From Caulobacteraceae bacterium (GTDB taxonomy: Bacteria > Pseudomonadota > Alphaproteobacteria > Caulobacterales > Caulobacteraceae): 64,000 nt of DNA. The notes under the pieces are model-generated. The model saw nothing but the letters and a program-made list of their open reading frames with translations. It was not told where the DNA came from and made no database searches. Position numbers and translations under genes: made by a program. The stretch spans positions 1 through 64,000 of the forward strand of contig JANXUA010000122.1 in the NCBI GenBank assembly GCA_025352085.1. The letters are read 5' to 3'. Positions 35,071 to 49,139 of the stretch are shown in pieces (within the stretch, counting starts at the first letter, position 1; the number at the start of each line of letters is the position of its first letter).

Positions 35071-35937
35071 TTATCCCTTCCCGGCCACAAAGGCCCCGAA
35101 GGCGTCCCGGTAGTCGCGATGCCAGCGCGACAGGGGTGGGCGGTTGTCGATGATGTCGTGGGCGGCCCAGGCCATGCGCGCGTCATCGAGCGCGCGCGGC
35201 GTGTCGTTGTCGGGGCAGAGGATGTAGAAATCGCCGGCGCTCACGCGCTCCAGCATGAAATCCACCACCTGCGGCGCCGTCCAGGCGCCCGGCGGCTTTT
35301 CGGCGATGCGACGGCGGATCATGCCGGTGTAGGTGAAACCCGGGATCAGCAGATGGGCGCTGACCCGGCAGCCCGGCGTCTCGCGCAGGGTGTGCTGCAG
35401 GCCCTCGGTCAGGACCTTGATGGCCGCCTTGCTGACGTTATAGGCGGTGTCGCCCGGCGGGGTCGTGATGCCCTGTTTGGAGCCGGTGTTGATGATCACC
35501 GCTGGGCGGTCCTGATCGATCATCGCCTGCGTGAAGACCTGCACGCCGTTGATCACGCCGCCGAGGTTGACGGCGAGGAGTTTGGCCCAGCGGTCGGGCT
35601 GCTCGAAGGCGTGACCGCCGCCGCCAATGCCGGCGTTGTTCATCAGAACGGCGACATCGCCGAACCGCGCGAACGCCCGTTCGCGCAGACGGATCAGCTG
35701 AGCGGGGTCGGCGACATCGGTCTGGATGGCCTCGACGCCGGCGCCGTCGCGGGCCTTTTCGCGCACCGCGCCCGCCGCCCGCCACAACTGGTCGCCGCCA
35801 AGGTCCGCCATGACCACATTGAGGCCCAGGCTCGCGAAGGTCTGGGCCGCAGTCAACCCGATGCCATCGGCGGCGCCGGTGATCACCGCGGTGCGGCCAG
35901 CGTCGAAGACTTCGTGAAAACGCGATTCGCCGGCCAT
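35071..35937 (-). CDS. SDR-family oxidoreductase
   Basis: AVITGAADGIGLTAAQTFASLG; LMNNAGIGG; YNVSKAAIKVL. Confidence 0.93.
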   Translation of the reverse strand: MAGESRFHEVFDAGRTAVITGAADGIGLTAAQTFASLGLNVVMADLGGDQLWRAAGAVREKARDGAGVEAIQTDVADPAQLIRLRERAFARFGDVAVLMNNAGIGGGGHAFEQPDRWAKLLAVNLGGVINGVQVFTQAMIDQDRPAVIINTGSKQGITTPPGDTAYNVSKAAIKVLTEGLQHTLRETPGCRVSAHLLIPGFTYTGMIRRRIAEKPPGAWTAPQVVDFMLERVSAGDFYILCPDNDTPRALDDARMAWAAHDIIDNRPPLSRWHRDYRDAFGAFVAGKG

Positions 35938-35940
35938 GGC

Positions 35941-36666
35941 CTAGGCGCGCAGCCGCTCCGCGTGGCCGTGGGCGATCGGGTCGTCGACGTCGAGCCAGAA
36001 GCGCTCGCCGATGTCGTGGGTGCGGGCGAGACCCAGCGGCGCCAGGCGCAACATGCCGGCCGATATCGAACCGGGACCGCCGGCGGCGTGGTCGTCCGCG
36101 ATCGCGCGCACCAAGCCCCTGGTCGCGCAGAACAGGCCGGTGTCGAAGGCGTTGTAGGCGCCAATCAGCTTGCCGATATCCAGGATCCGGCTGTCATCGT
36201 CGGTCAGCACGCGGGTCACGTCCTCGAGATCGACCAGGGGATTATCCATCCGGCGATCCACCGCCAGCACCACGCCGCCGGGCAGTTTGGGCGCCGCCAG
36301 CAGGTCGCGCAGCAGGCCCGGCTCGAACAGATGATCGGACATCATCAACACGAACTCTTCGCGCAGCACCGGCTCGGCGGCCGTGACCGACAGGCCGTTG
36401 GAGAGGGTCCATTCATCGTTGCGGACGGTCTTGATCGACACGTGCTTGCGCTTGGCCAGCTTGGCCAAAAACGCTTCCAGGCGGTCGCCCTCATAACCGG
36501 TGACGACCACGAATTCGGTGACGCCGGCCTGGCCCGCGCTGTCGATGGCGCTTTCGATCAGCGGGACGCCGGCAACCTTGGCCAGCGGCTTGGAGACCGC
36601 GATCCCCCGCAGCCGCGTTCCCATGCCGGCGGCGACGATCAGGGCCTGGACCGGGGCGCGTTTCAC
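35941..36666 (-). CDS. Sugar/inositol-phosphate nucleotidyltransferase (IPCT-like)
   Basis: Nucleotidyltransferase signature ALIVAAGMGTRLRGIAVSKPLAKVAGVPLIE; RNDEWTLSNGLSVTAA...FVLMMSDHLFEPGLL; overlaps inositol-phosphate synthase by 4 nt. Confidence 0.82.
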   Translation of the reverse strand: MKRAPVQALIVAAGMGTRLRGIAVSKPLAKVAGVPLIESAIDSAGQAGVTEFVVVTGYEGDRLEAFLAKLAKRKHVSIKTVRNDEWTLSNGLSVTAAEPVLREEFVLMMSDHLFEPGLLRDLLAAPKLPGGVVLAVDRRMDNPLVDLEDVTRVLTDDDSRILDIGKLIGAYNAFDTGLFCATRGLVRAIADDHAAGGPGSISAGMLRLAPLGLARTHDIGERFWLDVDDPIAHGHAERLRA

Positions 36667-37766
36667 TGGGCGGCGACGCGGCTCTGCGTCTCGATGAAGA
36701 CTTCGGTCATCCGGCTCGCCTCGTCATCGGTGAATTGCAGGGGCGGATGCTTGCAGAAAAAGGCCGACGGGCCGATCAGCGCGCCGCTGAGGCCACGATC
36801 CAAAGCCAGTTTGCAGCAGCGGATGGCGTCGATCACCACGCCGGCCGAATTGGGCGAATCCTCCACCGACAGGCGCACTTCGATGTTCATCGGCACATTG
36901 CCGAACAGGGCGCCTTCCAGCCTAAGGAAACACAGCTTGTTGTCGTTGAGCCACGGCACATAGTCGCTGGGACCGACGTGGATGTTTTCGTCCGCCAGAC
37001 GGGCGGCCATGACCGATTGCACCGCCTCGGTCTTGGAGATCTTCTTCGACATCAGCCGGCCGCGGTCCATCATGTTCATGAAGTCGGTGTTGCCGCCGGT
37101 ATTGAGCTGATAGGTCCGGTCCATGCGCACGCCGCGCTGGCGCATCAGATTGGTCAGGGCTCGGTGGACGATGGTGGCGCCAAACTGCGCTTTCACGTCA
37201 TCGCCGATGATCGGCAGGCCGCGCGCCTTGAACTTCGCCTCCCACTCGGGGTCGCTGGCGATGAACACCGGCATGCAGTTGACGACGCCGACCCCCGCCT
37301 CGAGCGCACACTCGATATAGAACCGCGTCGCGTCTTCAGAGCCGACCGGCAGGAAGTTCACAAGCACCTCGGTGCGGGTCGCCTTGAGCGCGGCGACGAC
37401 GTCGGTCCTACTGGGCTCGGCGGCCTTTGAACGCACGAAACTGCGATCGGGCGGCATGTGCTCCATGTGGTCGGCCATGCCGTCGAGCACCTTGCCCATG
37501 CTCACCTTCACGCCCGCCGGGGGCACTTCGGCGAACACGGCGGTGCAATTGGGCTTGGCGAAAATGGCCTGGGCTAGGTCGGTCCCGACCTTGCGTTCGT
37601 CAATGTCGTAGGCGAGGACAAATTCCATGTCCGTGGGGGAATAACCCCCAAGGTCCCAGTGCATCAGGCCGGCGCTGTCGTTGGCGACTTTATAGTAGGC
37701 GACGCCCTGCACTATCGAACTCGCGCAATTGCCTACTCCAACAATCGCCGCGCGAATCTTATTCAT
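36663..37766 (-). CDS. ino1: myo-Inositol-1-phosphate synthase
   Basis: MNKIRAAIVGVGNCASSIVQGVAYYK; MHWDLGGYSPTDMEFVLAYDIDERKVGTDL; GVVNCMPVFIASDPEWEAKF; LNTGGNTDFMNM; SKKISKTEAV. Confidence 0.93.
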   Translation of the reverse strand: MNKIRAAIVGVGNCASSIVQGVAYYKVANDSAGLMHWDLGGYSPTDMEFVLAYDIDERKVGTDLAQAIFAKPNCTAVFAEVPPAGVKVSMGKVLDGMADHMEHMPPDRSFVRSKAAEPSRTDVVAALKATRTEVLVNFLPVGSEDATRFYIECALEAGVGVVNCMPVFIASDPEWEAKFKARGLPIIGDDVKAQFGATIVHRALTNLMRQRGVRMDRTYQLNTGGNTDFMNMMDRGRLMSKKISKTEAVQSVMAARLADENIHVGPSDYVPWLNDNKLCFLRLEGALFGNVPMNIEVRLSVEDSPNSAGVVIDAIRCCKLALDRGLSGALIGPSAFFCKHPPLQFTDDEASRMTEVFIETQSRVAAQ

Positions 37767-37929: not shown

Positions 37930-38817
37930 GTGAAATCAAGTCCCCCTCTCATAATTGCTCCGCTTTCGGCGGCGCCGGGACGGCCTTTGGAGGTCGAGGA
38001 AGCGACCAACCGCTATCTGGTGCATCCGGTTTCGCGCGCAGTCGTTGATCGCCTGGTCAATACACGCGTGACTCCCAACCAGGTTTCCGTGGCCAGCGTG
38101 TTCGCCGCCGGCGCGGGGGCGCTTTGCTATTTGGTGATTCCCGGGCCGCTGGGGGCGCTCACCGGCGTCGCCTTTCAGTTTCTGTGGCACGTCCTCGACG
38201 GCGCGGACGGCGATCTGGCCCGCCGGACGGGGCGGGCCTCGCCGATCGGCGAACTGGTCGACGGGGTGTGCGACCACGTCAGCCAAGCCCTCGTCTATCT
38301 CGCCTTTGTCGCCCTTCTGCTGCCCACCCTGCACGGATGGGCCTGGCTCGTCGCCTCGGTGGCCGGGGCGTCGCACTTCATCCAGGCCAACGCTTATGAG
38401 ACAGGGCGCAAGACCTATCGCCGGTGGGTCTACGGCGCCGCCTGGATGCGCCAGACGGCGGGCGCGGCAACCGGCGTCCAGGGTGCGCTGGCGGGCCTCT
38501 ACATCGGCCTGTCGCGCCTGGTCAGTCCCGGGGAAACCGGGGTCGAGGCGGCGATGGAGACGTCCCTGGCGGCGGACGGCCCAGCCGCCGATCGGGCGCG
38601 CCTCATTTACGGCGAGCGCCTCGCGCCCCTGGTCAAGCGCAGCGCCGTTCTGAGCGGGAACAGCCGGACCATCGCCGCCTTCCTGAGCATGCTGGTCGGC
38701 AGTCCGTTGTGGTTTTTCCTGTTCGAGATCGTCGTGCTCAACCTCGCCGCAGTGATCATCGTCGTGGCGCGGGGCCGATGCAACCGCGCCGTGGCGGCGG
38801 CGCTGAAAGGGGATTAG
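37930..38817 (+). CDS. CDP-alcohol phosphatidyltransferase family protein
   Basis: Complete CDP-OH motif DGADGDLARRTGRASPIGELVDGVCD, with VTPNQVSVASV and several TM segments. Confidence 0.9.
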   Translation: MKSSPPLIIAPLSAAPGRPLEVEEATNRYLVHPVSRAVVDRLVNTRVTPNQVSVASVFAAGAGALCYLVIPGPLGALTGVAFQFLWHVLDGADGDLARRTGRASPIGELVDGVCDHVSQALVYLAFVALLLPTLHGWAWLVASVAGASHFIQANAYETGRKTYRRWVYGAAWMRQTAGAATGVQGALAGLYIGLSRLVSPGETGVEAAMETSLAADGPAADRARLIYGERLAPLVKRSAVLSGNSRTIAAFLSMLVGSPLWFFLFEIVVLNLAAVIIVVARGRCNRAVAAALKGD

Positions 38818-40048: not shown

Positions 40049-41902
40049 CTACGCCGCTTCGGCCCCGAACTGAAGCCGCGCCAAGCGCGCATAAAGGCCG
40101 CCCTTGATGAGGAGTTCGGCGTGGCGGCCCTCCTCGACCACCCGTCCGGCGTCCATGACGACAATGCGGTCGGCCTCGAGCACCGTGGCCAGGCGGTGGG
40201 CGATGACCAGGGTGGTGCGTCCCGCCATCGCCTCATGCAGGGCGTGCTGAACCAGGCGTTCGTTCTCCGCGTCCAGGGCGCTGGTAGCCTCGTCGAGGAG
40301 CAGGATCGGCGAGCGGCGGATCAGGGCGCGGGCGATCGCCAGGCGCTGCCGTTGACCGCCCGACAGGGTCTTGGCGTGCTCGCCGATCAGGGTGTCGAAG
40401 CCGTGCGGCAGGGCGTTGATGAAGCCCTCGGCCTGGGCGGCCACGGCCGCGTGGCGCACATCTTCGAGAGTCGCCCCCTGACGTCCGAACATGATGTTGT
40501 CGGTCGCCGATCCCGAAAACAGCGGCGCCTCCTGGGCGACCAGGGCCATGCGCGAGCGCACCTCGCGCGGATCGGCGGCGGCCAGATCCACCCCGTCGAT
40601 GCGTACGACGCCGGCGTCGGGGTCGTAGAAGCGCAGCAGGAGACGCAGGACCGTGCTCTTGCCCGCGCCCGACGGACCGACCAGAGCCACGCGCTCGCCG
40701 GGCCGCGCGCGCAGGGAAAAGCCGTTCAACGCCGGCGGTCCGTCGCGTCCGGGATAGGCGAAGGACACGCCCTCGAACGACACCTCGCCGCGCGCGGGTA
40801 CCGGCAGGGGCGTGGGATGAACCGGCGCGGAGATCGCCGGGCGGGCGTCCATCATTTCGGCCACGCGCTCGGCGGCGCCCGAGGCCTTCTGGATCTGCCC
40901 CCACACCTCCGAAAGATCCTTGACCGCGTTGGCGGCGAAAAAGGCCAGGGCCAGCAACTGGAACAGGGCGCCGGCGGAAAGGCTATGCTCGACGATCACC
41001 GCTATGGCCGACTGATACAGCAGCCACAACATACCGAGGAATATCAGAGCGATCATCACCCCCGACAGGGCGCCGCGGGCCCGGATTTGGGCCAAAGAGG
41101 CGTCGAAGGCGCTCTCGACCGAAGCGTTGAAACGCCCGGCGACCGCGTCCTCCTGGCCGAACGCCTGCACGGTGTCGAGCGCGCCCAGACCCTCTCCGGC
41201 GTAGCCGATGGCTTCGGCGAAGCAGTCCTGCGCATGGACGCTCAACCGCTGCATGCTGCGACTGAGCAAAAAGACCGGGGTCAACAGCAGGGGCACCAGA
41301 AACAGAACCAGCCAGGCAAAGCTAGGGCTCACCACCACCATCCACACCAGCGCGCCGGCCAGAGTCACCATATTGCGCAGGGCGACCGGGATGACATTGC
41401 CGACGATGCCCTCGATCATGGTCATGTCGGTGGTCATGCGCGACAGCACCTCGCCGGTGCGCAGATTGAGAAAATGCGTCAGGTCGAGGCCAAGCACGTG
41501 GCGAAACACCTGCTGGCGCAGGTCGGCGACCACCCGCTCGCCAAGCTTGTAGAGGAAGTAGAGCCGCAGCCCCGTCGTCACCGCCAGGACCCCCGCGAGG
41601 CCGCCAGCCCACGAAAAGGTCCGAATCAATGAAGCCTTGTCCTGCCCGGCGAAGCCGCCGTCGATAACCAGGCGCGCGCCTCCGGTTAGGGCGAGCAGGG
41701 CGGCGGCGGAAACCAACAGGAACAACAGGCCAAGGCCGGCGTCCAATGGGTGCGCCCGCACAAACGGAACCAGACGCATCAACGGCCGAAGGTCGCGGTT
41801 CTTGTCGCGGCGCCAAGCATCGGCCAGGAATTCGTCCTTCATGACGGCGCCCAGACTGGGGCGTCCCGTCTTGGCCGACACAGGGGTGGGCTTGGCCGTC
41901 AT
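40049..41902 (-). CDS. MsbA-like ABC exporter (fused permease/ATPase)
   Basis: N-terminal TM domain plus Walker A GPSGAGKSTVLRLLLRFYDPDAG, signature LSGGQRQRLAIARALIRRSPILLLDEATSALD. Confidence 0.93.
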   Translation of the reverse strand: MTAKPTPVSAKTGRPSLGAVMKDEFLADAWRRDKNRDLRPLMRLVPFVRAHPLDAGLGLLFLLVSAAALLALTGGARLVIDGGFAGQDKASLIRTFSWAGGLAGVLAVTTGLRLYFLYKLGERVVADLRQQVFRHVLGLDLTHFLNLRTGEVLSRMTTDMTMIEGIVGNVIPVALRNMVTLAGALVWMVVVSPSFAWLVLFLVPLLLTPVFLLSRSMQRLSVHAQDCFAEAIGYAGEGLGALDTVQAFGQEDAVAGRFNASVESAFDASLAQIRARGALSGVMIALIFLGMLWLLYQSAIAVIVEHSLSAGALFQLLALAFFAANAVKDLSEVWGQIQKASGAAERVAEMMDARPAISAPVHPTPLPVPARGEVSFEGVSFAYPGRDGPPALNGFSLRARPGERVALVGPSGAGKSTVLRLLLRFYDPDAGVVRIDGVDLAAADPREVRSRMALVAQEAPLFSGSATDNIMFGRQGATLEDVRHAAVAAQAEGFINALPHGFDTLIGEHAKTLSGGQRQRLAIARALIRRSPILLLDEATSALDAENERLVQHALHEAMAGRTTLVIAHRLATVLEADRIVVMDAGRVVEEGRHAELLIKGGLYARLARLQFGAEAA

Positions 41903-42086
41903 TCAGATCCTTTGGGGCGGCGTACGCCCCCTCATAACCGATCAAAAGCGTCGCTACGCTCGACGCGCGGCGTCGTTATCGACTATCAGGTCCGCGCACT
42001 TTGTCGATGATGCGCCAAAACCCATACCGTGCCAGTATGGCGCATTATTCGACATTCTTTCGAATCTTTCGAGCGGACCCCTGATT

Positions 42087-43811
42087 TTGACCCCGACGCC
42101 CACCGCGCCTGATCGAACCATCCGACAGGGTGACTTCGCCACCATTTCCGCCGCGCTCGACTTCGCGGCCGAGCAAAAGACCGGCGTCAACATCCATTCG
42201 CTGCGCGGCGAACTGACCGAAGTGCTCTCTTACGCGGACCTCGCGGCGCAGGCCAGAGACCTGGCGGTTCGTCTCCTGGCGCTTGGCCTCGCGAGCGGCG
42301 ATCGGGTAGCCCTCGCCGCCGAGAGCGACGGGGATTTCCTGCGCGCCTTCTTCGCCTGCCAGTACGCCGGCCTGGTGCCCGCGCCGGTCCCCCTACCCGC
42401 GCCGTTCGGCGGCAAGGACGCTTATGTCGCCCACGTCCGCCGCATGCTGATCTCCGCCGACGCCCGCGCCGCCTTGGCACCGGAGGCCTTGAGCGCATGG
42501 TTTAAGGAAGCGGGCGAAGGTCTGGGGCTGGCCTTGACCGGCACACTGGCGGACCTGCCCACCGCGCGCGGCGGAGCCCTGCCCACGCCGGACCCCGACG
42601 GCCTTTGCTATCTGCAGTTTTCCTCGGGAAGCACGCGCTTCCCCCTGGGTGTCGCGGTGACCCAAAAGGCTCTGATGGCGAACCTCGTCGCCATCGGGCG
42701 GGACGGCCTTGATGTGCGGGCGGCCGATCGCACAGTGACCTGGCTGCCACTCTACCATGACATGGGCCTGGTCGGCATGCTGCTGGCGAGCCTGGCCTTC
42801 CAGGTCTCGATCGATCTGTTGCCCACCGGCGCCTTTGTGCGCCGTCCGAGCCTGTGGCTCGACCTGATTTCCAAGCGCGGCGGCAGCATCTCCTATGCGC
42901 CGACGTTCGGTTACGACCTGGCCGCGCGGCGCGCCCAGACGTCCGCGACGACCGATCTCGATCTTTCAACCTGGCGGATCGCCGGTCTGGGCGGCGACAT
43001 GATCCGACCCGAGCCGCTGCGCGCCTTCGCCGACGCCTATGCGGCGTCCGGCTTCGATCCACGCGCCTATGTCGCCAGCTATGGCATGGCCGAAGCGACC
43101 CTGGCCCTGACCCTATCGCCCGTGGGCGTGGGACTGCGCACGGACATCGCCGACGTTAATCGGCTGGAGCGCAACGCCATCGCCGGGCCCGCCGCGACGC
43201 CGAACGCCCGCACGCGCGAGTTCGCGCTTTGCGGCCCGGTCCTGCCCGGTCATCGGCTGGAAGTGCGCGACGAGGCCGGCGCGGTGCTGCCTGATCGTCG
43301 CGTCGGGCGGCTGTTCGCATCGGGTCCGAGCCTGATGAAAAGCTATTTCGGCGAACCGCAGGAAACCGCCAAGAGCCTCTCGCCGGACGGTTGGCTCGAC
43401 ACCGGCGATCTGGGATACGTGGTGAACGGCGAGATCGTCATCACCGGACGCGCCAAGGATCTGATTATCGTCAACGGCCGCAATGTTTGGCCCCAGGATC
43501 TGGAATGGACCGCCGAACAGGGCGTCGAAAGCCTGCGCAGCGGCGATGTCGCCGTCTTTTCCGTGGACGGCGGCGAAGAGCGGGTGGTCGCCTTGGTGCA
43601 ATGCCGCACCCGTGACGAAGAAGCGCGCGCGCGGCTGAGCAAGGACGTCGCCAACCTATTGCGCGTCCGACACGGCCTGGACGTTCTGGTCACCCCGACC
43701 CCGCCGCACAGCCTACCGCAGACCTCATCGGGCAAGCTCAGCCGAACCAAGGCGAAGGCGCTGTACCTTGCCGGCGCTTTTGACGCGATGCCGGTCAAGG
43801 CGACAGCCTAG
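42087..43811 (+). CDS. Fatty-acyl-AMP ligase / acyl-ACP synthetase-like (ceramide locus)
   Basis: Adenylation-domain FAAL-like sequence: CYLQFSSGSTRFPLGVAVTQKALMANL, WLPLYHDMGLVGMLL, GDLGYVVNGEIVITGRAKDLIIVNGRNVWPQDLE. TTG start inferred. Confidence 0.87.
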   Translation: MTPTPTAPDRTIRQGDFATISAALDFAAEQKTGVNIHSLRGELTEVLSYADLAAQARDLAVRLLALGLASGDRVALAAESDGDFLRAFFACQYAGLVPAPVPLPAPFGGKDAYVAHVRRMLISADARAALAPEALSAWFKEAGEGLGLALTGTLADLPTARGGALPTPDPDGLCYLQFSSGSTRFPLGVAVTQKALMANLVAIGRDGLDVRAADRTVTWLPLYHDMGLVGMLLASLAFQVSIDLLPTGAFVRRPSLWLDLISKRGGSISYAPTFGYDLAARRAQTSATTDLDLSTWRIAGLGGDMIRPEPLRAFADAYAASGFDPRAYVASYGMAEATLALTLSPVGVGLRTDIADVNRLERNAIAGPAATPNARTREFALCGPVLPGHRLEVRDEAGAVLPDRRVGRLFASGPSLMKSYFGEPQETAKSLSPDGWLDTGDLGYVVNGEIVITGRAKDLIIVNGRNVWPQDLEWTAEQGVESLRSGDVAVFSVDGGEERVVALVQCRTRDEEARARLSKDVANLLRVRHGLDVLVTPTPPHSLPQTSSGKLSRTKAKALYLAGAFDAMPVKATA

Positions 43812-43914
43812 CACTCTTTATTTTTCGGCCGAGCACGGCTATCGAAGCGCTCTTGTCCCCCGAACGCGGCGGCGAATCACTGGCCGTTTGGCGTTTGGGC
43901 TGGAGTGCGTGGCT

Positions 43915-43964
43915 AGAGCCTTTCCGTCTCGAACGGACCCATTCGAGACGGATAAAAAGGCTCT
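43915..43964. terminator. Long inverted repeat between FAAL and ACP genes (terminator or repeat element)
   Basis: AGAGCCTTTCCGTCTCGAA / TTCGAGACGGATAAAAAGGCTCT arms: inner TCCGTCTCGAA/TTCGAGACGGA and outer AGAGCCTTT/AAAGGCTCT. Confidence 0.55.
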
Positions 43965-44101
43965 AAATCGAATATTTGGAGCGTGACGGGCGGCGGAACC
44001 AGTATCCACTTCCGCCTGTCACGCTCTGGCGAAGGTTGAAGCTTGTGTCCTAAACCTGTTACTGTGCGGAAGGGGGGACGGCCTTTAGTCCCCGACAAGC
44101 C

Positions 44102-44416
44102 ATGGGACTTTCAGGCCGAATGCAGTCAAATCACCGATTGGCGTTAGTGGAAAATAAAGACGCCGACCCACAAGCTCAGATGCGGGAGGATATCGCCTCC
44201 GTGTTCGAGCAGGTGTTGGGACATCCGGTCCAAATCACCGATCAGACCGACATTGTCGAAGACCTGGGAATGGATTCCCTGGGGGTGATGAATTTCGTCA
44301 TGGCGATTGAAGATTTTTATGATATTTCGATCCCGCTCGATCGGATCGCCCAGATACAAACCGTGGCAGACCTGATTCACGCAGTTCAAGATCTGCGGAG
44401 CGGGACCCCGACATGA
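44102..44416 (+). CDS. Acyl carrier protein (ceramide locus)
   Basis: DIVEDLGMDSLGVMNFVMAIEDFYDISIP with DSL phosphopantetheine site; ATGA overlap with the Spt gene. Confidence 0.9.
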   Translation: MGLSGRMQSNHRLALVENKDADPQAQMREDIASVFEQVLGHPVQITDQTDIVEDLGMDSLGVMNFVMAIEDFYDISIPLDRIAQIQTVADLIHAVQDLRSGTPT

Positions 44417-45636
44417 CCATCCTCGCCAAACACGCCGCTTCGAAGCTCGTCTATGATTCCTTGAAGGAACATGGCGTCGATCCGGTCAACGTGCGCTTCG
44501 ACAGCGTCCTGTCGCCCACCGAAGGCATGTTGCATGGTCGCCGCACCATCCTTTTGGGCACCAACAACTATCTGGGCCTCACCTTCGACCCCGATTGTAT
44601 CGAACGGTCCGTAGAGGCGACGCGCAGCCAGGGCACCGGCACGACCGGCTCGCGCATCGCCAACGGCAGTTATGACGGGCACCTCAGGCTTGAAGAAGCC
44701 CTGGCCAATTTCTACGGTTGCCAGCACGCCATGGTGTTCAGCACCGGCTATCAGGCCAACCTCGGCATTTTGTCCACTCTGGTGGGGCGTGGCGATCACC
44801 TGATGCTCGACGCCGACAGCCACGCCAGCATTTATGACGGCTCGCGCCTGGGCCACGCCGAGGTCATCCGCTTTCGTCACAACAGCCCCGACGACCTCTA
44901 CAAGCGCCTGCGCCGCCTCGAAGGCGTGCCCGGCGACCGGCTGATTGTCGTCGAAGGCATCTATTCCATGCTCGGCGACACCGCGCCGCTGAAGGAATTC
45001 GCGGCGGTGAAGCGCGAGACCGGCGCCTATCTGCTGGTCGACGAAGCCCATTCGATGGGGGTTCTGGGCGCCACGGGTCGCGGTTTGGCCGAAGCGGCCG
45101 GCGTCGAGGATGACGTCGATTTCATCGTCGGCACCTTCTCAAAGAGTTTGGGCAGCGTCGGCGGCTTCTGCGTCTCCAACAATCCTGATTTCGATATCCT
45201 GCGCGTGGTCTGCCGGCCGTACATGTTCACCGCTTCGCTGCCGCCCGGCGTCATCGGATCGACCTTGGCCGCCCTGGAAAAAGTGCGCAGCGAGCCGCAA
45301 CTGCGGGTCAATTTGATGCGCAACGCCCACCGGTTGCATGATGGTTTGACGGCCCTGGGCTTCCAGACCGGTCCGGAAGCCAATCCCGTGGTCGCCGTGG
45401 CCATGCCCAATACCGAGACGGCCGTCCTGTTCTGGAAACTCCTGCTCGACAAGGGACTGTATCTGAACATCGCCATCCCGCCGGCGACACCGACCAATGT
45501 CTCCCTGCTCCGCTCCAGCGTCAGCGCGGCGCACACCACCCAGCAAATCGACACCGCGCTGGAGCTTTTCGCCGATGTCGGACGGCAACTGGGCTTCCTC
45601 ACCGCTGATCGCCGTCGCGCCGGCGGGGTCGTCTAG
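44413..45636 (+). CDS. spt: Serine palmitoyltransferase (alpha-oxoamine synthase family)
   Basis: LLGTNNYLGLTFDP; GTGTTGSRIANGSYDGHLRLEEALANFYG; LLVDEAHSMGVLG; GTFSKSLGSVGGF PLP lysine; preceded by ACP. Confidence 0.88.
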   Translation: MTILAKHAASKLVYDSLKEHGVDPVNVRFDSVLSPTEGMLHGRRTILLGTNNYLGLTFDPDCIERSVEATRSQGTGTTGSRIANGSYDGHLRLEEALANFYGCQHAMVFSTGYQANLGILSTLVGRGDHLMLDADSHASIYDGSRLGHAEVIRFRHNSPDDLYKRLRRLEGVPGDRLIVVEGIYSMLGDTAPLKEFAAVKRETGAYLLVDEAHSMGVLGATGRGLAEAAGVEDDVDFIVGTFSKSLGSVGGFCVSNNPDFDILRVVCRPYMFTASLPPGVIGSTLAALEKVRSEPQLRVNLMRNAHRLHDGLTALGFQTGPEANPVVAVAMPNTETAVLFWKLLLDKGLYLNIAIPPATPTNVSLLRSSVSAAHTTQQIDTALELFADVGRQLGFLTADRRRAGGVV

Positions 45637-45642
45637 ACCCTG

Positions 45643-47934
45643 ATGGCTTCGATGGCGCTCAGCGCGCCGACGAAATATAAAATGGCGTGGCGGCCCTCGA
45701 TCCTCGACGGCTACATGCTGCGTATGCTGGCCATGCCGGCGCTAGGCGTATTGGGCGTGACCCTGGTCGCGTTTCTCCTCGAACAGACCCTGCGACTGAT
45801 CAATGAGATGGCGTCGAACGGCGCGCGCCTGGGATACCTGTTCGGCCTGATCAGCAATCTGGTGCCCTATCAGCTGGGCCTGGCCCTGCCCGCTTCGTTT
45901 TTCGTCGCCATGTTCATCGTCATCGCGCGCCTGGACGAGGAGAGCGAGATCGACGCCATCCTCGCCGGCGGGATTTCGTTTGAGCGCATCGTTGCGCCCC
46001 TGGTCTTCGCCGGCGTCGTCTTGGGGCTGCTGAGCCTGCTGTTGGTCGGCTATGCGCAGCCGTACGCCCGGTTCGGCTATCGCGCCGTCCTCAACGCTGC
46101 CACCGACGCCGGCTGGACGGCGCGGCTCGACCCGCAGGTATTCATTCACGCCGGCCCCGATTTCGTGATCACGGCCGACGACGTCGACGCGAGCGGACGC
46201 AGCCTCAAGGGCGTCTTCATTCGCCGCAAGTCGGCGACCGGCGAGACGGTGGTTACGGCCACCAGCGGCCGCCTGGGTCTGCGCGCGGACAGCAAGACCA
46301 CCGATCTGAGCCTAAACGGCGGCTTGATCCTCTCCGACGCCCCAGGCGGCGAACGATTGCTGCGCTTTGGCGATTTCGCCGATCACGAAGTGCTGAACAG
46401 TCGCGAGGTGCTGAGGCCCCGCGGCGGCGACGAGCAGGAGATGACCCTGCCGGAGCTGGTGAGCGAGAGCCAACGACCGGACGCCCTGATCCCCCAACGG
46501 GTTCTGCTCGCCGAGCTGTATTCGAGGCTGGCGAGGTCCCTGGCCATGCCCCTGCTGCCGCTCCTGGCGCTGCCCCTGGCGCTGGCCGCCAAGCGCGGGC
46601 GGCGCGCGCCGGGGATGATCGTCGGGGCGGTGCTCCTGGTCGCCTTCCACCACGGCGTCACTCTTTGCAAGAGCTTCGCCCAGAAGGGCGCCGTCGATCC
46701 GCTGCTGGCGATCGGCGGGATATTTGCGGTGATGTTGACGCTCGGGTTTTGGTTGTTCCTGTCCAGCCGCAAGCGACCCGGCGATACGCCGATCTCGGGC
46801 TTCCTCGCCCGCATTGACGGCTTGTTCCAGCGGCGCGGCGCCACCACGCCGGCGGCGATGCAGGCCAAGGGGTCCTTCAGCCTGTCGGCCTATCTGACGC
46901 GGATGATGGCGGTGCGTACGGCGGCGGCGGCGGCGGCCCTGATGGGCCTGTTGCAGTTGATCGATCTTCTGGAGCGCACCAGTGATATCCTCACGCGCGG
47001 CGGGCCGCTGGGGATCTTGCGCTATATGGCGCTGCGGCTGCCGTATATGTTCGGCGAGGTGGCGCCGTTCGCGGTGCTGGCCGGAGCGATTTTTACTTTC
47101 AGCCAGCTTGCCCGCAACAGTGAGCTGGTGGTGATGCGGATCACCGGCATGTCGCTATTCGAAATTTTTCGCCGGACCCTGCCGGTGGCCTTGTCCGTGG
47201 CGGCCTTGGACCTGGTCGTCGCCGATCAGGTGACCCCGCGCGCCCAACAGGCCCTGGCCAGCTGGTGGTCGGCCAGCGCCCCGGGACCGGTTGTCAAGGC
47301 GTCGGCGGCGCGCTGGTTCCATATTGACAACAATGTGGTCATGGTCCGCGCGGCGACGAGGGATGGGAATACCTTGCGCGGCGTTTCGATCTACGAGCGC
47401 GACGCGCAAAAGGCGCTGACGCGGCGGATCAACGCCGAGAGCGCGACAACGGAGGTCGGCGGCTGGCGACTGCACAACGCCGCCGTCACCGATCTAGGCG
47501 CCGCGCACGCCTCGCAGATGACGCTGGCGTCCATGGACTGGCGTAGCACCCTTAGCGCCGGCGACACCCGCCGCCTGTTCGCCGACTCCTATGAGATCAC
47601 CTCGGGCACGGCCTATCGGTCCCTATTCGGCAAGGGTCCGGTGGACAAGAGCCCAAGCCAGTTCGAAACGCGGCTGTTTCGAACCCTGGCAGCGGGCGTG
47701 GCGCCGATCATCATGCTTCTGCTGGCGCTGCCCACGGCGCTGGGATACGCCCGCAGCAACCGCACCGGGCCGGTGATTTTTGGACTGGGCTGCGGCCTGC
47801 TCTATCTGGTGGCCGACGGATTGCTCACGGCCATGGGCCAAACCGGGGTTCTGCCGCCCCTCGTCGCGGCATGGGGCGCACCGGTCGGCTTCGCCGCCGG
47901 GGCGATCAGCATATTGCTTTACGCGGAAGGGTGA
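45643..47934 (+). CDS. Fused LptF/LptG (YjgP/YjgQ) permease
   Basis: 763 aa with two successive YjgP/YjgQ-like modules (N: LDGYMLRMLAMPALGV...EESEIDAILAGGISFERIV; C: LSAYLTRMMAV...NSELVVMRITGMSLFEIFRRTLPVAL). Confidence 0.87.
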   Translation: MASMALSAPTKYKMAWRPSILDGYMLRMLAMPALGVLGVTLVAFLLEQTLRLINEMASNGARLGYLFGLISNLVPYQLGLALPASFFVAMFIVIARLDEESEIDAILAGGISFERIVAPLVFAGVVLGLLSLLLVGYAQPYARFGYRAVLNAATDAGWTARLDPQVFIHAGPDFVITADDVDASGRSLKGVFIRRKSATGETVVTATSGRLGLRADSKTTDLSLNGGLILSDAPGGERLLRFGDFADHEVLNSREVLRPRGGDEQEMTLPELVSESQRPDALIPQRVLLAELYSRLARSLAMPLLPLLALPLALAAKRGRRAPGMIVGAVLLVAFHHGVTLCKSFAQKGAVDPLLAIGGIFAVMLTLGFWLFLSSRKRPGDTPISGFLARIDGLFQRRGATTPAAMQAKGSFSLSAYLTRMMAVRTAAAAAALMGLLQLIDLLERTSDILTRGGPLGILRYMALRLPYMFGEVAPFAVLAGAIFTFSQLARNSELVVMRITGMSLFEIFRRTLPVALSVAALDLVVADQVTPRAQQALASWWSASAPGPVVKASAARWFHIDNNVVMVRAATRDGNTLRGVSIYERDAQKALTRRINAESATTEVGGWRLHNAAVTDLGAAHASQMTLASMDWRSTLSAGDTRRLFADSYEITSGTAYRSLFGKGPVDKSPSQFETRLFRTLAAGVAPIIMLLLALPTALGYARSNRTGPVIFGLGCGLLYLVADGLLTAMGQTGVLPPLVAAWGAPVGFAAGAISILLYAEG

Positions 47935-47942
47935 GGCCGCTC

Positions 47943-49139
47943 TTGACTACCGAGATCGAAATCATTGCGGTGGACGGCAAGGCCCTGCTGGAGCGGTTCA
48001 TCCGCGTTCCAATGCGTCTCATGGCGGGCGATCCGCGCTATATCGCGCCCTTGATGTTTGAGCGTCGCGAAGCGCTTTCGGCCAAGCACAATCCGTTTTT
48101 CGAACACGCCGACGTGCAGTTCTGGCTGGCGCGCAAGGACGGCCGCGATGTCGGACGGATCAGCGCCCAGATCGACCATCTGGCGCGCACCGATCCGGCC
48201 GCGCCCGCCGGATACTTCGGCATGATCGCCGCCGAAGACGATGCGGACGTCTTCGCGGCCCTGTTCAAGACCGCCGAAGACTGGCTGCGCGCGCGCGGTC
48301 GCGCGCAGGTCCTTGGGCCGTTCAACCTTTCGATCAACGAGGAAGTCGGCCTGTTGATCGACGGCTTCGACAGCGCGCCGATGGTCATGATGGGGCATGA
48401 TCCGGTCTATACCGCCGCGCGGATCGAGGCGCTCGGCTACGCCAAGGCTAAGGACGTGTTCGCCTACATCTCCGATATACCGGTGTTCACGCCGGGCGTG
48501 CAGGCGCGCCTGGAGCGGCCCCTGGCGCCCGGCGTCGTCCTGCGCCCGGTGCGCATGGACAAGTTCAACGAGGATGTGAACACTCTGGTGGAAATCCTCA
48601 ACGACGCGTGGGCGGACAACTGGGGCGCGGCGCCGGTGACGGAGGCCGAAACCAAGCATCTGGCCGAGTCGATCCGGCTGATCCTTCACCCGCGCCTGGT
48701 CTGGTTCATTGAAATCGACGGCGAGGCGGCGGGATTCATCGTTCTTCTGCCCAACCTCAATGACGCGATCCATGATCTGAAGGGCAAGCTCCTCCCGTTC
48801 GGCTGGGCCAAGCTGCTGTGGCGCCTCAAGGTCAAGGGCGTGAAACGCGGCCGGGTGCCGCTGATGGGCGTCAAGCGCAAGTTCGCGCGCGACCCGCGCG
48901 GACGCTTCGCGCCCTTCGCCCTCGTCGACGCCATCCGCCGCGAAGGGGTCAAGGTGGGTATTACAAGTGCGGAATATTCTTGGATCCTCGAAGACAACGA
49001 ACCCATGCGGCACATTCTCGAAAGCTTCACCGCGCGGGCCTACAAGACTTACCGCATCTACCGCAAAGACCTTGGCGCGGGCCTTCAAGCCACAAGCCAA
49101 TATTCCAGCCGGGACGAGAACGATCATGAGAACATTTAA
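47943..49139 (+). CDS. GNAT-fold acyltransferase, bacterial ceramide synthase (bCerS)-like
   Basis: FIRVPMRLMAGDPRYIAPLMFERREALSAKHNPFFEHADVQFWLARKDGRDVGRISAQID; GPFNLSINEEVGLLIDGFDSAPMVMMGHD. TTG start inferred; position in the spt operon. Confidence 0.8.
   Translation: MTTEIEIIAVDGKALLERFIRVPMRLMAGDPRYIAPLMFERREALSAKHNPFFEHADVQFWLARKDGRDVGRISAQIDHLARTDPAAPAGYFGMIAAEDDADVFAALFKTAEDWLRARGRAQVLGPFNLSINEEVGLLIDGFDSAPMVMMGHDPVYTAARIEALGYAKAKDVFAYISDIPVFTPGVQARLERPLAPGVVLRPVRMDKFNEDVNTLVEILNDAWADNWGAAPVTEAETKHLAESIRLILHPRLVWFIEIDGEAAGFIVLLPNLNDAIHDLKGKLLPFGWAKLLWRLKVKGVKRGRVPLMGVKRKFARDPRGRFAPFALVDAIRREGVKVGITSAEYSWILEDNEPMRHILESFTARAYKTYRIYRKDLGAGLQATSQYSSRDENDHENI

Follow-up and report, generated by a model that had tools for sequence, protein, structure and literature searches.

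A single-chain LptF2-LptG2 permease in the sphingolipid operon of an uncultured Caulobacteraceae genus

One open reading frame in the sphingolipid operon of a Caulobacteraceae bacterium encodes both halves of an Lpt-type permease, LptF2 and LptG2, as a single protein, here called LptFG2. It lies in the window, the 64,000-nucleotide stretch of DNA that was analysed (features in Table 1). The fused protein is a real single-chain variant of a known, uncharacterised sphingolipid Lpt permease. What is new is the LptF2-LptG2 fusion; the specialised permease predates it and has already been proposed for Caulobacter. There, CC_1168, CC_1156 and CC_1155 were put forward as LptC2, LptF2 and LptG2 for phosphosphingolipid transport, and mutants in CC_1156 show cofitness with those in CC_1159, the CPG2 gene (PMC11324152). 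Caulobacter sphingolipids end up in the outer membrane, and according to a 2024 study no flippase or transporter had been identified there (PMC11087976). The literature we searched contained no experiment on sphingolipid transport by LptF2/LptG2. Judged from homology and gene context, LptFG2 is likely to form the membrane component of an ABC transporter of the Lpt type whose dedicated cargo is sphingolipid.

Table 1. Features of the window around the fused gene (positions are those of the window).
Feature	Positions	Strand	Basis
Short-chain dehydrogenase, after the inositol genes	35071..35937
IPCT-like cytidylyltransferase	35941..36666	-	best NCBIfam match NF041135, below cut-off
myo-inositol-1-phosphate synthase-like gene	36663..37766	-	PF01658 over cut-off
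CDP-alcohol phosphotransferase, near the sphingolipid cluster	37930..38817	+
ABC exporter related to MsbA, divergent neighbour of aasR and candidate flippase	40049..41902	-	best match TIGR02204 MsbA_rel, 729.7 bits (cut-off 780.4, not reached)
aasR, acyl-AMP ligase serving the acyl carrier protein of sphingolipid synthesis (approximate start)	42000..43811	+	NF006624 fatty acyl-AMP ligase above cut-off; position as Caulobacter CC_1165
acpR, acyl carrier protein	44102..44416	+	PF00550
spt, serine palmitoyltransferase	44413..45636	+	NF047599, 674 bits, cut-off 500
Fused LptF2-LptG2 permease, 763 aa, ATG start	45643..47934	+	open reading frame; PF03739 twice; TIGR04407 and TIGR04408 above cut-off; model and fold search
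LptF-like module, aa 20-385	45700..46797	+	TIGR04407; in the tree with LptF2 of Caulobacter and Phenylobacterium, apart from housekeeping LptF
Codon of Glu102, which aligns with E. coli LptF Glu84	45946..45948	+	alignments
Linker, aa 386-412, LptF C-terminus to LptG N-terminus	46798..46878	+	model; relaxed selection
LptG-like module, aa 413-763	46879..47934	+	TIGR04408; in the tree with LptG2
Codon of Glu494, which aligns with E. coli LptG Glu88	47122..47124	+	alignments
cerS, bacterial ceramide synthase-like acyltransferase, GTG start	47931..49139	+	lptF2-lptG2-cerS order as in Caulobacter CC_1156-1154 and relatives

The reading frame was confirmed exactly, and with it the claim of an earlier note, made from the window alone, that LptF and LptG are fused within 763 residues. 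Pfam PF03739 matches the protein in two stretches (418.5 bits summed, cut-off 27.9; in the whole-genome search the halves score 213 and 217.7 bits), NCBIfam TIGR04407 LptF covers residues 20-373 (270.6 bits, cut-off 230) and TIGR04408 LptG covers residues 414-759 (282.6 bits, cut-off 240). Each half matches solved LptF or LptG chains in sequence. An AlphaFold2 model was built from a shallow alignment of 18 rows (alignments A4 and A5, which placed LptG rows on LptF columns, were left out of the input) and reached a mean pLDDT of 75 and a pTM of 0.63. At this medium confidence the predicted structure consists of two modules, each of three helices, a beta domain and three further helices. The top Foldseek matches in the PDB are LptG (6mit_G, TM 0.83 by target) and LptF (8frl_F, 0.83). 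Model and PDB matches thus both give, in either half, six helices of which the third and fourth are separated by a periplasmic beta-jellyroll, the two YjgP/Q folds on which the earlier reading depended. The separate LptF and LptG polypeptides of LptB2FG are replaced by a single frame. LptF ends and LptG begins on the cytoplasmic side of the membrane, so a fusion of the two is topologically simple. The linker is modelled as a short helix followed by a low-confidence stretch, and it differs among members in sequence and length.

Could the fusion be an artefact of assembly? The frame is intact in 14 of the 16 genomes of the genus; the remaining two lack the protein, so that every carrier is fused. 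Selection on the gene is purifying (dN/dS 0.08-0.22 overall) and is relaxed only in the 27-residue linker (0.86-0.89 in two comparisons). The open frame in 14 members, together with purifying selection, rules out an artefact. The closest named records are metagenome-assembled Caulobacteraceae. Among named loci, lptF2 and lptG2 are split in 65 of 80, and 62 of these 65 show a 4-nt overlap of the two genes, lptF2 ending in ATGA or GTGA. This overlap in relatives argues that the fusion is a derived change that arose in one uncultured, Caulobacter-like genus from an overlapping gene pair.

Nor is fusion widespread: a sample of 385 genomes from across the class contained no other clean LptF-LptG fusion, all other one-frame matches having stop codons between the two genes. 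A search of viral contigs returned no match. In another family of the order, genome G057 carries an LptF-LptG fusion of 792 aa (L058:3979-6357) with acpR, spt and cerS downstream; it groups in the tree with a split pair and is therefore probably independent of the fusion in the genus. The apparent fusion of Phenylobacterium sp. J367 (L191) was treated as a frameshift artefact because its cerS was matched in two pieces. G023, possibly a mixed bin, has a fused contig, 6% contamination and two spt genes. In G009 there is a second fused LptFG (L061:9408-11978), 39% identical, which branches beside the fused clade and has no sphingolipid genes that we could find beside it. Our search of openly available papers found no description of a natural LptF-LptG fusion.

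Is the fused protein simply the LPS permease of this bacterium? A genome-wide search for other lptF and lptG genes, a check proposed in the earlier note, located a housekeeping lptF-lptG-lptD-surA cluster on contig C110, separate from the fused gene, and lptC-lptA-lptB together on contig C14. The fused protein is therefore not the housekeeping LPS permease, an identity also ruled out by its place outside the housekeeping clades. In an unrooted tree of 62 half-proteins, built by a quick method, LptF-type rows are set apart from LptG-type rows, and each type contains a single housekeeping group (support 99 and 97). The fused halves nest with split pairs of Caulobacteraceae in the LptF2 and LptG2 clades (100 and 99). 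By clade membership, and by adjoining cerS and spt, the fused protein belongs to the proposed LptF2/LptG2 class. Descent of LptFG2 from an LPS permease may be the correct history and is one possible rooting of this tree. We also compared positions that we take to be LPS contacts or cavity residues in E. coli. At the alignment position of E. coli Arg33, LptF2 rows carry Arg (two have His) and housekeeping rows Ser, Thr, Ala or Gln; at 292, LptF2 rows again carry Arg and housekeeping LptF rows Phe, Tyr or His. Gln34 and Trp136 are common to most LptG2 rows. Such clade-specific differences in the cavity region are no more than suggestive.

The gene starts 6 nt past spt, and its stop overlaps cerS by 4 nt, which places the permease inside the sphingolipid operon, as had been claimed. 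The arrangement recurs in relatives: of 73 loci with sufficient sequence, 66 have cerS directly 3' of lptG2 and the other seven have it about 1 kb away, and spt is found no more than 7 kb upstream of the LptFG2 genes in 55 of 62 loci. A Pfam search of the cerS-like gene gave no match. Counting extra LptFG matches per genome against spt matches in the 60 nearest genomes, we found both in 26, neither in 31 and a discordance in three: G039 has an LptFG2-like pair without spt, and G007 (71% complete) and G038 have spt without the pair. Fisher p values, uncorrected for relatedness, are about 1e-13 overall and 8e-9 outside the genus.

What powers the permease? No LptB-type ATPase adjoins the gene, in agreement with the earlier note; the nearest ABC gene is the MsbA-related exporter, which has its own transmembrane domain and adjoins aasR in all genus members with a contig long enough to show it. 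Each half of the fused protein retains its coupling glutamate, Glu102 and Glu494 corresponding to E. coli LptF Glu84 and LptG Glu88, which lie in the LptB coupling helices. Only one LptB of the window genome, that on C14, exceeds the cut-off of 240 bits, the next ATPase scoring 149.7. Because the coupling glutamates are kept and the genome has a single LptB, the fused permease probably borrows the housekeeping ATPase, which is in keeping with the earlier suggestion of an ATPase supplied from elsewhere. The Caulobacter and Phenylobacterium LptG2 rows L136, L158 and L196 have Ala at the coupling Glu, and coupling may differ there. In or beside the sphingolipid cluster of Phenylobacterium deserti are an LptB (L166:11967-12725, minus strand) and an LptC (L166:12761-13423, minus strand), adjoined by a CpgD-like gene; a second LptC/LptB locus lies elsewhere in that genome. 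By analogy, this cluster supports a sphingolipid Lpt system that would run on LptB. An orphan second LptB occurs in G003 and G015, both of the fused genus; it is away from the sphingolipid genes and does not group with the P. deserti LptB. As for the periplasmic bridge, each of seven fused-genus genomes searched has one LptC and no detectable second, and Caulobacter relatives have two LptC genes. We rejected loss of LptC2 as a consequence of fusion, since the split-pair genomes G021, Stella and Solimonas also have one LptC.

The genes near the sphingolipid cluster bear on the possible cargo. Together, the cytidylyltransferase, the myo-inositol-1-phosphate synthase-like gene and the CDP-alcohol phosphotransferase could make CDP-inositol and inositol phosphoceramide, replacing the phosphoglycerate head group of Caulobacter. 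The Caulobacter enzyme CpgD, of the same broad class as the cytidylyltransferase, makes CDP-glycerate (PMC12275187). The reductase gene cerR, usually found between aasR and acpR, is absent from that place (43812-44101) in the window and likewise in G003 and G013. These three are the genomes of the genus in which the inositol gene set is complete, and none was found to hold a close CerR elsewhere (best 32-36% identity); G015 and G009 keep cerR. The short-chain dehydrogenase that follows the inositol genes is an uncertain candidate for a CerR replacement, since no such gene was found next to the inositol genes of G003 and G013. The missing reductase and the inositol genes may change which lipid LptFG2 carries. 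The earlier description of a dedicated ceramide-lipid exporter is supported by operon position and by co-occurrence with spt, with the qualification that what is carried may be ceramide in phosphorylated form and not ceramide as such.

We propose the following route. Spt and CerS would make ceramide, to which a head group would then be added. To get to the outer leaflet of the inner membrane, the ceramide lipid might use the MsbA-related exporter encoded divergently; the sphingolipid would then enter the LptFG2 cavity. An LptB dimer would sit on both coupling helices, and ATP hydrolysis would drive the lipid into the two periplasmic beta-jellyroll domains. From there it would pass to the outer membrane, probably with the housekeeping LptB and with the housekeeping LptC/LptA or none. 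The fusion probably fixes the pairing of F2 with G2 and keeps housekeeping LptF and LptG from mixing in, which would insulate the pathway. A fuller version, in which a naturally single-chain LptFG separates sphingolipid from LPS while sharing LptB and carries phosphoinositol-ceramide made by the nearby inositol genes, in a genus that does without LptC2 and, in some members, CerR, is possible but on balance doubtful.

Might LptFG2 instead be a second, redundant or conditional LPS permease that sits in the sphingolipid operon by chance or through co-regulation? Its fold is the same, the family models that match it are named for LPS export, and in the window genome the ATPase is necessarily shared with LPS export. 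We nonetheless regard this as improbable in view of the deep split from housekeeping LptF and LptG, the way its presence tracks spt, and the other conserved residues at the cavity-aligned positions. The permease could also serve sphingolipid movement in another direction or at another step, such as retrieval from the outer membrane or delivery of ceramide to a periplasmic CerR. To our knowledge, all characterised LptB2FG transporters extract lipid outwards from the inner membrane, which speaks against this, as do the three genus members that keep LptFG2 yet have no close CerR. In Caulobacter, however, CerR is periplasmic and no flippase or transporter had been identified (PMC11087976); we give this alternative little credence all the same.

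A further reading accepts the operon and disputes the single chain: an internal start in the linker would yield two proteins from the fused frame, and the working form would still be an LptF2/LptG2 heterodimer. Most members do have an in-frame ATG ahead of the LptG module, but the codon is ATC in L121, GTC in L128 and GTG in L131, no ribosome-binding site is evident upstream when judged by eye, and the fused product would remain anyway. We consider internal initiation very unlikely and retain the single-chain, sphingolipid-dedicated permease as our reading.

The fused protein bears on the route of sphingolipids to the outer membrane, a step for which LptFG2 is probably a dedicated pump, and on the question of how two Lpt paralogues can use one ATPase without crossing substrates. 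With a single chain, mixed subunits are no longer a concern, and substrate and ATPase use could be examined directly on one purified protein together with LptB. The cluster of P. deserti, which brings along an LptB and an LptC, would be a self-contained alternative for this purpose.

How does LptFG2 compare with known systems? It shares with LptF2/LptG2 of Caulobacter crescentus (CC_1156/CC_1155) the two modules, their order before cerS, the sphingolipid cluster and the clades. Unlike its Caulobacter counterpart, it is one protein rather than two, and the window genome lacks the second LptC found there. With the LPS transporter LptB2FG(C) (6mit, 8frl, 6s8h) it has in common the fold of the halves, the topology and the coupling-helix glutamates; the two differ in that LptFG2 is one chain instead of two, at about 20% identity, has no LptB in its operon and carries other conserved residues in the cavity region. 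The MsbA-type lipid A flippase (TIGR02203/TIGR02204) is the kind of ABC exporter encoded by the operon's divergent neighbour. Its fold is different from that of the fused permease, and its nucleotide-binding domain is part of its own chain, so that it is no substitute for LptB.
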